NCBI GenBank assembly: GCA_017559185.1 | Contig: JAFYSU010000027.1 | Span: 1 to 64,000 of the forward strand | DNA from: Oscillospiraceae bacterium | Lineage (GTDB): Bacteria; Bacillota; Clostridia; Oscillospirales; Ruminococcaceae | DNA: 64,000 nucleotides | Reading direction: 5' to 3' | Shown: in pieces, positions 2,976 to 55,716 of the stretch | Position numbering within the stretch: position 1 is the stretch's first letter | Layout of the letters: the number at the start of each line of letters is the position of its first letter | Notes under the pieces: generated by a model | The model's database searches: none | The model's input: only the letters and a program-made list of their open reading frames with translations | What the model was told of the DNA's origin: nothing | Program-made: the position numbers and the translations under genes

Positions 2976-3175
2976 AAAAGTAAAGAAACCGCCCTCCAAA
3001 AATGAAAGGCGGTGAGCATATGCAAAGTAAGCGATTGTCAGAAATACTCAAGTTTGTAAAAGCAAATCCACAGCATCGCTACTCGTGCAGATACCATGCG
3101 GGAACATGGTACTTGCAAATCAGATAAGAAAACCACAACTTTAAACACGACTAAAAAGGCGGTTTCTTTACTTTT
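2976..3175 (+). repeat. 18-bp inverted repeat enclosing a short ORF
   Basis: AAAAGTAAAGAAACCGCC at 2976-2993 is perfectly complementary to 3158-3175. A third partner, GGCGG at 3009-3013, lies within the ribosome binding region of the 3020 ORF and can also pair with the 5' CCGCC. The two pairings exclude each other, which would let the transcript switch between a fold-back form and a local hairpin over the ribosome binding site. Confidence 0.7.
3020..3127 (+). CDS. Short basic ORF inside the inverted repeat
   Basis: This 35-residue frame (beginning MQSKRLSEILKF, rich in Arg, Lys and His, ending WYLQIR) has a plausible ribosome binding site, GGCGGTGAG, six bases upstream. Its own promoter is TAGATA-17-TATAAT (2935-2963), controlled by the RHH operator repeats. 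It has no hydrophobic helix, so it is unlike classical type I toxins. I do not recognise it. It may be a real peptide gene or only a regulatory leader. Confidence 0.4.
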   Translation: MQSKRLSEILKFVKANPQHRYSCRYHAGTWYLQIR

Positions 3176-3218
3176 AGATTATCAGGAAAAATATAACTTG
3201 TCAAATGAGGAATAGATT

Positions 3219-3593
3219 ATGAATAATAAAATGTCTGTTGTAATAGTAGAGCCGTTCAAAAAACCATATGCAGCTGAAATCGGTACCGAAGTGGAGGATA
3301 TGCAGCGAGTAGTTGATGGATATATTCAAGCTATATATCCATTCGATGACGAAGCAGCCATTGTGTGCAACGAAGAAGGTAAATTGAGAAGATTGCCACT
3401 TAACCGAGTGTTGCGAAATGAGGACGGAGGGATATGTGAAGTCATTGCCGGTACATTCATGATAGTAGGTGAGGGTGAAGAAAATTTTACATCCTTGAGC
3501 GAGGAACAAATACAGACATACATCGAAAGATTTAAAAATCCTGAAATGGTAGGAATGACGAACGGAAAACTTATAGCTGTACCGCTTGCTTAA
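3219..3593 (+). CDS. DUF3846 domain protein
   Basis: This 124-residue protein fits the DUF3846 family. It has an N-terminal VVIVEPFKKPY strand, the central GYIQAIYPFDDEAAIVCNEEGK and a following LPLNR and IAGTF. These proteins are common on conjugative elements and plasmids of Firmicutes; their function is unknown to me. The start follows GAGGAATAGATT. Its presence marks this region as mobile or formerly mobile. No conjugation genes are in the window. Confidence 0.75.
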   Translation: MNNKMSVVIVEPFKKPYAAEIGTEVEDMQRVVDGYIQAIYPFDDEAAIVCNEEGKLRRLPLNRVLRNEDGGICEVIAGTFMIVGEGEENFTSLSEEQIQTYIERFKNPEMVGMTNGKLIAVPLA

Positions 3594-3692: not shown

Positions 3693-3709
3693 TATAGGAG
3701 GTGTTTATT

Positions 3710-3940
3710 ATGGATACAGCCAAAATATTTGAAAATGGAAGAAGTCAAGCTGTTCGTTTACCTAAAAAATTTAGATTTTCTGATGAAGAAGTGGTAGTTC
3801 AAAGATTAGGTGAAGCGGTTATTTTAATTCCTAAAACAGCTGTATGGCAAACATTTCTTGATGGACTAAATAGTTTTACAGATGATGTTTTCCAAAACGG
3901 AAGAGAAGCAGAAATAACAACAACGAGGGATACATTATGA
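3710..3940 (+). CDS. vapB: VapB-type antitoxin (AbrB/SpoVT fold)
   Basis: This 76-residue antitoxin has the swapped-hairpin AbrB-type DNA-binding N-terminus (AKIFENGRSQAVRLPKKFRF) typical of VapB. Its C-terminal tail wraps around and inhibits the toxin. I start it at 3710 because AGGAGG (3696-3701) is eight bases away; a GTG at 3701 lies on the ribosome binding site itself. Its stop overlaps the vapC start by ATGA. Confidence 0.88.
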   Translation: MDTAKIFENGRSQAVRLPKKFRFSDEEVVVQRLGEAVILIPKTAVWQTFLDGLNSFTDDVFQNGREAEITTTRDTL

Positions 3941-4338
3941 TTTATATGCTTGATACAAATATCTGCATATACGCAATAAAAAATAAGCCTGAGGCTGTTT
4001 TGAACAATCTAAAGAAAAATCTTCACAAGGGAATTTGTATTTCATCAATAACATTAGCGGAACTGGAGCATGGCATACAAAAAAGTGCATATCCCGAAAA
4101 AAATTCCATTGCACTTATTCAGTTTCTATCAATTTTATCGGTGATTCCATTTGATGATGTAGCTGCAGTAGAATATGGTAAAATTTGTGCTTACCTACAG
4201 AAGAAAGGTACACCAATAGGGACAATGGATATGCTTATTGCAGCACACGCAAAGACAGAGGGTTTAATTTTAGTTACCAACAATACCAGAGAATTTGAAA
4301 GAGTTCCGGAACTGGAGCTTGAAAATTGGGCGTTGTAA
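3937..4338 (+). CDS. vapC: VapC-type PIN-domain ribonuclease toxin
   Basis: This 133-residue PIN-domain endoribonuclease is probably Mg-dependent and active on tRNA or rRNA. The acidic residues are visible: MLDTN near residue 6, the LAELEHG glutamate near residue 44, TMDMLIAAHA near residue 100 and TNNTREF near residue 121. Length and motif order are normal for VapC, so the toxin looks intact. It is coupled to vapB by a 4-base overlap. Confidence 0.93.
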   Translation: MIYMLDTNICIYAIKNKPEAVLNNLKKNLHKGICISSITLAELEHGIQKSAYPEKNSIALIQFLSILSVIPFDDVAAVEYGKICAYLQKKGTPIGTMDMLIAAHAKTEGLILVTNNTREFERVPELELENWAL

Positions 4339-4893: not shown

Positions 4894-4942
4894 TCAAGTG
4901 TGCAATAAATATAAGGATGAAAGGGAATAATTGCTGTTATTA

Positions 4943-4971
4943 TAGACTTTTTCAGGGTTTTATGGTATAAT
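4943..4971 (+). promoter_or_regulatory. Promoter of the 190-base structured RNA
   Basis: TAGACT (4943-4948), 17 bases and TATAAT (4966-4971), within the context TAGACTTTTT...ATGGTATAAT that also occurs at 86-113. Confidence 0.65.
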
Positions 4972-4977
4972 TATAGA

Positions 4978-5168
4978 AAATAAAAAAACTTCCACAGCGT
5001 GAGGAACGGCGGCAACCGAACTTCACGCATACGCCAAAACAGATTCGTTACATCTGTTAGTGACTTGTGAAAGTTAATCTTCAATGGCATTATAGCACAT
5101 TTTGAAGTGATTTTCAACACCAGCCACCAACAGACAAAGGCACTGTTTGGGAGGCTGGTTTTTGTTTT
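4978..5168 (+). ncRNA. Candidate small structured RNA of unknown class
   Basis: The interval between the promoter and an intrinsic terminator has no convincing ORF but dense pairing. AACTTCCACA pairs with TGTGAAAGTT to close a three-way junction. Arm one is GCGTGAGG...CTTCACGC with CGG...CCG inside; arm two is AACAGAT...ATCTGTT. A hairpin CTTCAA...TTGAAG follows. The final terminator stem ACCAGCC (5119-5125) / GGCTGGT (5153-5159) with an inner CCAACAG/CTGTTTGG is followed by TTTTTGTTTT. A G-T wobble in arm one and the T-run favour the plus strand. I cannot match it to 6S, tmRNA or a known riboswitch. Confidence 0.6.
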
Positions 5169-5192
5169 ATATCACGAAACTTTTCGTGATAT
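5169..5192. repeat. Perfect palindrome between two RNA genes
   Basis: ATATCACGAAA and TTTCGTGATAT (11-bp arms, CT centre) lie between the terminator of the first RNA and the promoter of the second. It could be a second terminator, as ATATATTTTT follows, or a regulator site. Confidence 0.6.
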
Positions 5193-5210
5193 ATATTTTT
5201 AAAACTTATT

Positions 5211-5219
5211 TGCTATACT
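5211..5219 (+). promoter_or_regulatory. Extended -10 promoter of the large structured RNA
   Basis: TGCTATACT (5211-5219) fits an extended -10 element. No good -35 is present. Transcription would start near 5226, just before a long series of hairpins. Confidence 0.5.
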
Positions 5220-5225
5220 TAAACA

Positions 5226-5730
5226 TAGCAAAGCTGAGCATTATCAATCTCACTTTTGAAAAATGCTCAGACAATTACTTTTTGATATTAAGCAGGCGCA
5301 ACTGCTTAATATAGATGATGCCATTAGTCAATGGTATCTTTTGAACCGGAAGGTTTGAACTGTTCCTTGACAACCGAATTTAAACATTCATTGGTACTGA
5401 ATCTGTTGCCGAAAGCTCTGACAAGCGATACCGCCATGACCTTTTACTTGTAGAAGTGAGCGATAACTATCGGCTTGCGATATTGGGTAGCACCCAAGAA
5501 AGCAACGACCGGCAACTTATCCTAATGACACTTCTGTCCAGTCTAAGGTCTGAGCGGTTGACAACCGTCGTAGGCAATGAGGGCAGCCTGGTGAGAACCA
5601 CGGGGAGGCATAGGACTTATTAAATAAGAACTATGACCTATGGGTTAGTAAGCTGCTAACCGTTAATGAATGAGTCGATTGACAAGTTATATTTTTCCTG
5701 TGCGGGGTGTTAGCGCACTCCGTACAGGTT
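5226..5730 (+). ncRNA. Large ornate structured RNA, ROOL/GOLLD-like candidate
   Basis: About 500 bases without a supportable ORF carry one hairpin after another: CTGAGCATT/AATGCTCAG; ATATTAAGCAG/CTGCTTAATAT (11 bp); GATGCCATT/AATGGTATC; GAACC/GGTTT; TTGGGT/ACCCAA; CGGTT/AACCG; CTTATT/AATAAG; GGTTAG/CTAACC; and a terminal CCTGTGCGG/CCGTACAGG (5697-5728). G-T pairs in several stems work only on the plus strand. Length, complexity and a tRNA gene 100 bases away fit the ROOL class (about 580 bases, often near tRNAs and in phage-like regions). The class assignment is inference; a structured RNA is well supported. Confidence 0.68.
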
Positions 5731-5763
5731 AATATACAAAGTCCCAAAAACTTCGTTATGCCA

Positions 5764-5788
5764 CAAAAAAGCCTATTTACATAGACTT
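5764..5788 (-). terminator. Terminator of tRNA-Leu
   Basis: On the minus strand AGTCTAT (5781-5787) pairs with ATAGGCT (5770-5776) around GTAA, followed by six T (5765-5770). Confidence 0.75.
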
Positions 5789-5833
5789 TCCTGTGACCTT
5801 ACGAGCAACAGCACATCAAGCGCTGTTCAATTT

Positions 5834-5920
5834 TGGTGCGGATGAAGGGACTTGAACCCATACAGTATTGCTACCACTAGAACCTGAATCTAGCGCGTCT
5901 GCCTATTCCGCCACATCCGC
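5834..5920 (-). tRNA. tRNA-Leu, anticodon CAG
   Basis: The 87-base tRNA has acceptor stem GCGGATG/CATCCGC, anticodon loop TTCAGGT (CAG), a long class II variable arm and T-loop TTCAAGT. CCA is encoded after the A discriminator. A strong promoter lies upstream and a terminator downstream. It marks the border between the accessory island (1-5830) and the core genes. Confidence 0.97.
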
Positions 5921-32252: not shown

Positions 32253-32402
32253 GTTTGTATGTTTTGTCATGCGGATGTATGGGTCCTGTGCGACAAGACG
32301 CCGTGAACCATGTCAGGCGGGGAACCGAGCAGCATTAAGCGGATTGCCATGTGCGCCGCAGGTAACCTGTGTGTCCGTATGATAGAGCATACAAACACCC
32401 TT
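32253..32402 (+). ncRNA. ffs: Signal recognition particle RNA, small type
   Basis: The apical domain IV is conserved: CCATGTCAGG, a GGAAC tetraloop-side strand and GAGCAGCA. Arms GTTTGTATG (32253-32261) and CATACAAAC (32388-32396) plus TCATGCGGA/TCCGTATGA close a single long hairpin of about 145 bases. A run of seven T follows from 32400. The place directly before dnaX is typical of Firmicutes. Confidence 0.93.
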
Positions 32403-55513: not shown

Positions 55514-55550
55514 AAAGTGCGAAAGGGAAACATTCCCACAAATTGAATAG

Positions 55551-55661
55551 GATATCTTCAGGGCAGGGTGCAAGTCCCTACCGGTGGTAAAGCCCACGAG
55601 CCGCAAGGCATGATTCGGTGAAATTCCGAAGCCGACAGTACAGTCTGGATGGAAGAAGATG
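55551..55661 (+). promoter_or_regulatory. FMN riboswitch (RFN element)
   Basis: The conserved RFN blocks are all present: CTTCAGGGCAGGGTG, CCCTACCGG, AGCCCACGAGCC, GATTCGGTGAAATTCCGAAGCCGACAGT and GGATGGAAGAAG. FMN binding should favour the downstream terminator and shut the rib operon. Confidence 0.97.
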
Positions 55662-55716
55662 AATTTTTAAATGCAGCGAAAGCATATTTTCGTTTTTGCG
55701 TTTGTTTGTGTTATTT

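Follow-up and report, generated by a model that had tools for sequence, protein, structure and literature searches.

What kind of RNA is encoded in the structured stretch beside a tRNA-Leu gene in an Oscillospiraceae bacterium, and what might it do there? The window analysed here comprises the first 64,000 nucleotides of contig JAFYSU010000027.1, in which a first-pass annotation had placed a probable giant ornate RNA of the ROOL/GOLLD type. Below, we assign this RNA to another family, extend the architecture of that family and compare it with a known antiterminator of conjugative elements.

A structured non-coding RNA adjoins tRNA-Leu

The observation of a structured non-coding stretch near tRNA-Leu is confirmed. 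Interval 5211-5745 of the plus strand folds with a minimum free energy of -188.4 kcal/mol, compared with -133.1 +/- 6.6 kcal/mol for 100 dinucleotide shuffles (z = -8.34), and no shuffle equalled it. The 11-bp perfect stem that had been described is present at about 5285-5295/5302-5312, and the tRNA gene lies beside the interval, as had been noted, on the minus strand. Plus-strand open reading frames overlapping the interval are of 55 aa, in agreement with the claimed lack of coding potential, and the proposed plus orientation is borne out both by the Rfam match described below and by the helices kept among relatives, all of which lie on that strand. The proposed extended -10 promoter held in part: the motif TGCTATACT can be seen by eye at the very start of the interval, while the promoter scanner did not report it. 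The general picture of a large structured RNA adjoining a tRNA in mobile-element DNA stands.

The conserved RNA occupies about 5362-5728 of the interval, and its homology in more than 100 relatives extends from a boxA-like element at the 5' end to a 3' hairpin (Table 1). For the four hairpins of the preceding leader, no convincing counterpart was found in relatives.

Table 1 Features of the structured RNA and of its surroundings, in window coordinates.
Feature	Position	Strand	Remarks
DUF3846 gene	3219-3593	+	
Window-specific 5' leader: extended -10 TGCTATACT (5211-5219, seen by eye) and four hairpins including the 11-bp perfect stem	5211-5361	+	
boxA-like element GTTCCTTGACAACCGAAT	5362-5379	+	Compare GTTCTTTGAAAATTGAATA of rRNA spacer
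P1 5' strand CATTCATTGGT	5385-5395	+	Pairs with 5662-5672, 11/11
P2 5' strand GTTGCCG	5405-5411	+	Pairs with 5510-5516, 7/7 Watson-Crick
P3 (5422-5430/5468-5477, one bulge) around conserved CGCCATGACC, P4 and GAGCGA	5422-5477	+	
P4, inside P3	5444-5449/5454-5459	+	z = 9.5
P5 hairpin TTGGGT/ACCCAA	5483-5497	+	z = 20.2
P2 3' strand	5510-5516	+	Family covariation z = 23.3
RF02913 pemK core	5522-5643	+	41.2 bits, cut-off 34.8
P7 hairpin GGTTAG/CTAACC	5643-5661	+	RNAalifold subgroup, window pairs
P1 3' strand GTTAATGAATG	5662-5672	+	Family covariation z = 25.7
P9 hairpin with GGGGTGTT	5697-5728	+	z = 9.2
Flank common to window and second copy (84%), up to tRNA-Leu 3' end	5729-5836		
tRNA-Leu (CAG)	5834-5920	-	Compare ICE in L187 ending at tRNA-Leu

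The RNA belongs to the pemK family

When all Rfam families were scanned, the sole match above threshold in the interval was pemK RNA (RF02913). The match spans the full model (positions 1-61) with an insertion and clears the gathering cut-off, with a score among the lower ones. By its sequence, the window RNA is thus a member of RF02913. ROOL and GOLLD are large structured RNAs in the mobile DNA of Firmicutes, and the window RNA resembles them in being large, structured, close to a tRNA and in mobile DNA. Yet no ROOL, GOLLD or OLE match reached threshold in the window, and a permissive Rfam search over 4900-5830, up to E = 10, gave no match to these three models and pemK as the sole significant one, which contradicts the ROOL/GOLLD assignment and leaves an ornate RNA of the ROOL, GOLLD or OLE type with a practically negligible probability. 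A group I/II intron and an RNA-guided nuclease scaffold, both considered from motifs, were dropped as they found no Rfam support.

Within the same bacterial family RF02913 is frequent, with matches in 69 of 198 genomes and at most nine in any one of them; in the rest of the phylum, 26 of 398 genomes have it. In addition, an exact-pattern scan of named genomes yielded 74 loci in Enterococcus, lactobacilli, Listeria, Erysipelothrix, Tissierella, Clostridium and others. As far as the literature found goes, pemK RNA has so far been without a tested function, and a paper that names it beside RAGATH-18 merely lists it as a defence-gene neighbour.

Covariation defines an architecture well beyond the Rfam model

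The RF02913 model has 61 positions and is typed as Cis-reg, and its core matches the window RNA above the gathering score. The conserved RNA is much larger, about 300-370 nt, with the boxA-like element and long-range helices lying outside the model. Comparing relatives by eye revealed further conserved blocks, some 160-200 nt before the core and some 100 nt after it. Aligned globally with MAFFT, 88 diverse sequences left too many gaps for RNAalifold, and we therefore tested the helices without alignment and on a subgroup of 14 members. In the alignment-free test, the pairing between a sequence's own 5' and 3' strands is compared with the pairing to the strands of other sequences, using 59-114 sequences for each helix; the sets for P3 and P4 exclude the window sequence itself. 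The z-values for P1, P2, P5, P4 and P9 are listed in Table 1, and P3 gave z = 6.8. Two control pairings gave z = -2.6 and z = -0.7, and a third (P2 5' strand against P1 3' strand) z = 5.3, probably because in some sequences these segments run into strands of adjacent helices. P1, P2 and P5 lie far above this highest control, whereas P3, slightly above it, is weak taken alone.

Unprompted, RNAalifold recovered the same architecture from the 14 related members, with 60 pairs, 43 of them showing compensatory double changes. The window copy itself can form every pair of these helices, not just those of P1 and P2 but also those of P3 (5/5 and 4/4), P4 (6/6), P5 (6/6), P7 (6/6) and P9 (8/8).

A variant of the RNA at L156:640-1000 (G116:C1:144000-146000) carries a boxA, a TACGCC-like block, GAGCGA and GGATACTTC. 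It is absent among the Rfam matches listed, which suggests that more divergent members exist.

A boxA-like element precedes the RNA

Almost all loci carry a sequence resembling GYTCYTTGAMAAYTGAATA immediately 5' of P1. The pattern CHTTGAMAA was present in the expected place at 112 of 134 loci, compared with 2 of 128 control intervals farther upstream and a shuffle mean of 2.5. The same motif (GTTCTTTGAAAATTGAATA) follows the 16S gene in the spacers of three rRNA operons of a relative, genome G131. A motif like GCTCTTTGAMAA is found here at a constant position ahead of the structured non-coding RNA, and we take it to be a boxA antitermination signal; in Tn1549 the boxA-like sequence is weak. 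Such signals are bound by NusB-S10. Antitermination of rRNA and of lambda N both involve boxA (PMC12691694).

The pemK core lies within canT of Tn916

A plasmid search with relatives of the RNA returned matches on Enterococcus plasmids. In pCF10 the match lies in a Tn916-type element, between sigma/helix-turn-helix genes and xis-int, and it has the same position in pCTN1046; the vanB (Tn1549-type) element of pMG2200 likewise carries an RF02913 match at the Tn916 position, the orf8-xis gap. The Rfam scores are 55, 55 and 57.8 bits, respectively. In Tn916, an integrative and conjugative element (ICE), the segment between orf8 and xis is canT (Wirachman and Grossman 2024, PMC11658703), established by experiment as an orientation-specific, cis-acting, processive antiterminator that is needed for conjugation-gene expression after excision (PMC11658703). 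Structure predictions for canT were judged hard to interpret by its own authors (PMC11658703).

In the inactivating mutation canT(S3), ATA is replaced by TGC at a Tyr codon belonging to the antisense reading frame orf5 (PMC11658703). As orf5 has two tyrosine codons only, both inside the pemK core ATAATGATAC, S3 necessarily lies within that core. Moreover, Tn916 forms the helices defined above (P1 10/10, P2 9/9, P3 6/7, P4 7/7 and P5 6/6), so that canT and the window RNA share the RF02913 core, the boxA-like element and P1-P5, and canT and the ICE relatives share the position downstream of sigma/orf8 genes. On these sequence grounds, RF02913 pemK RNA is here equated with the core of Tn916 canT. 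The canT paper (PMC11658703) makes no mention of pemK, Rfam or boxA; the pemK/RF02913 literature found, a set that does not cover the original 2017 description, gives no sign of a discussion of Tn916; and neither the pemK-canT link nor the boxA is mentioned in the literature searched. The Tn916 region also carries Rfam SQ2397 and Enterococcus sRNA_0030 (L158:4553-4782 and 1727-1891).

By its action, canT works like EAR of the eps operon, put of HK022, conAn of pLS20 and the rRNA and lambda boxA systems (PMC11658703, PMC12691694), in which a cis-acting RNA gives rise to a terminator-resistant polymerase. The likeness to EAR, put and conAn is one of action, with no membership by sequence or structure claimed, and the rRNA signal is the only one of these that the boxA-like motif resembles.

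Could pemK RNA instead be an ordinary cis-regulatory leader, acting on translation or local termination of whichever gene follows (pemK, xis or parA)? Rfam types it so, and the RNA is always followed, on the same strand, by a gene for a recombinase, PemK or ParA. However, the downstream gene varies while the RNA is constant; furthermore, the Tn916 segment antiterminates heterologous terminators in tandem, and excision is unimpaired in canT mutants (PMC11658703). We consider such a leader improbable. Antitermination by RF02913 members beyond Tn916 canT would instead follow, by analogy, from the shared core, helices, boxA and element position.

Equating pemK RNA with canT joins an unexplained family to a known function. 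For its part, canT has so far been a function without a defined structure and thereby gains one based on covariation, which suggests why the S3 mutation is fatal. Antitermination is predicted in more than 100 elements, including the vanB element of pMG2200, and the rRNA-like boxA at the 5' end of the RNA points to NusB-S10 as a testable host factor. The window RNA matters because through it the pemK family becomes tied to antitermination and shows an rRNA-like boxA signal.

The window copy probably marks the end of a former ICE

At all 40 other copies with wide flanks, a tyrosine/serine recombinase or ParA gene lies downstream on the same strand, and usually a sigma-like gene lies upstream. 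No recombinase or ParA gene of that kind lies beside the RNA in the window or beside L002, a second copy in this genome, and at the window copy no downstream operon needing antitermination is evident. The second copy is 82% identical from about 5493 on and lacks the 5' half. Both adjoin tRNA-Leu genes, and the roughly 105 nt between RNA and tRNA-Leu are common to the two, with similarity falling off at the tRNA 3' end; L002 has an extra stretch of about 64 nt before the tRNA. This common flank is probably the right end of a former element, and the tRNA-Leu (CAG) gene its probable integration site. In a relative, genome G116, an ICE with a canT-type RNA, pemK, xis and int (L187) ends at tRNA-Leu in the same orientation. 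In addition, in at least 12 relatives a homologue of the DUF3846 gene shares its contig with a canT-type RNA at a distance of 8-25 kb, and the window's DUF3846 gene is a likely remnant of the same element as the RNA. No att repeats of the tRNA-Leu end were found in the window, where the contig ends at position 1. As judged from the sequence, the simplest and most likely account is a decayed ICE at tRNA-Leu with the RNA kept at its right end.

The window copy thus differs from canT in lacking xis/int and a conjugation operon, in having a leader of its own and in its diverged loops. It does not lie between orf7/orf8-type genes and xis/int of an ICE, as canT does, and since no such genes are found near it we class it as a member of RF02913 related to canT rather than as canT proper.

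Between P1 and P9, the linker 5679-5700 is a 22-nt perfect complement of 3183-3204, which lies 15-36 nt upstream of the DUF3846 start codon. Exaptation of the window copy as an antisense regulator of DUF3846 through this linker would be favoured by the perfect match and by the 10-16 nt at most that the remaining copies scanned match in their own flanks. The match could, however, be a scar left by recombination within what was once a single element, and the start codon is outside the pairing; we regard this exaptation as quite unlikely, even more so than the cis-regulatory leader. As a guide or general antisense feature, the complement was dropped, being unique to the window among the copies scanned.

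Diverged loops and the activity of the window copy

The core in the window reads CTAATGACACTTC where the family has ATAATGATACTTC, a near-invariant stretch as judged from the relatives and not by any Rfam criterion. The window has GACAC against GATAC or GGTAC in the family, with TAC in 126 of 128 relatives, a count inflated because the pattern used to find 74 of the loci fixed that base. The TGARATT (TGARATTCC) loop of the family is replaced by a hairpin insert in the window and by a stem in L002 as well; likewise, GAGRACAAAT after P9 has become a stem in both copies. With several near-invariant loop bases changed, activity of the window copy in place is uncertain. That it is a non-functional, still undecayed canT-type pseudogene, which would be compatible with ICE ancestry, has a chance somewhat short of even: near-invariant bases have diverged, no ICE genes lie nearby and the second copy is without its 5' half, whereas all conserved helices of the window copy are intact and it folds far better than shuffles.

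Taken together, the window RNA is best explained as an antiterminator of the canT type that has diverged and was left behind by an ICE now decayed, a reading that we hold with good confidence. In the mechanism we propose, the nascent RNA would fold into a compact multi-helix domain (P1-P5, pemK core, P7 and P9) behind the boxA-like element. The boxA would recruit NusB-S10, and folded domain and boxA together might keep the RNA attached to RNA polymerase, so that downstream terminators would be read through. In an active ICE, such readthrough would link excision with the expression of the long operon. The copy in the window, outside any ICE operon, is most likely what remains of the right end of an ICE formerly inserted at the 3' end of tRNA-Leu, its xis/int and conjugation genes having disappeared.

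A broader reading, taken as a single whole, stands at about even odds: RF02913 in general may consist of boxA-bearing canT-type processive antiterminators that copy the host rRNA antitermination signal and serve mobile elements of Tn916/Tn1549-like and ParA type across Firmicutes, and the window copy may be a stand-alone descendant, which may still cause readthrough into the adjoining chromosome or, by way of its 22-nt complement, act on DUF3846 mRNA.

Other elements in the window

Upstream of the RNA, a candidate small RNA of about 100 nt (4980-5082, minus strand) has a long closing stem followed by a U-run (fold z = -4.9) and a sigma-70 promoter, TTGAAA-17-TATAAT, at 5117-5089; it has no Rfam match and short echoes in two relatives. 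A plus-strand promoter at 4943-4971 faces it. A MazE-like antitoxin and PIN-domain toxin form a VapBC-like pair at 3701-4338 (plus strand), and an 18-nt perfect inverted repeat surrounds a very short HicA-like reading frame at 2976-3175. The window further carries a bacterial small SRP RNA at 32277-32375 and an FMN riboswitch at 55550-55664, both on the plus strand.
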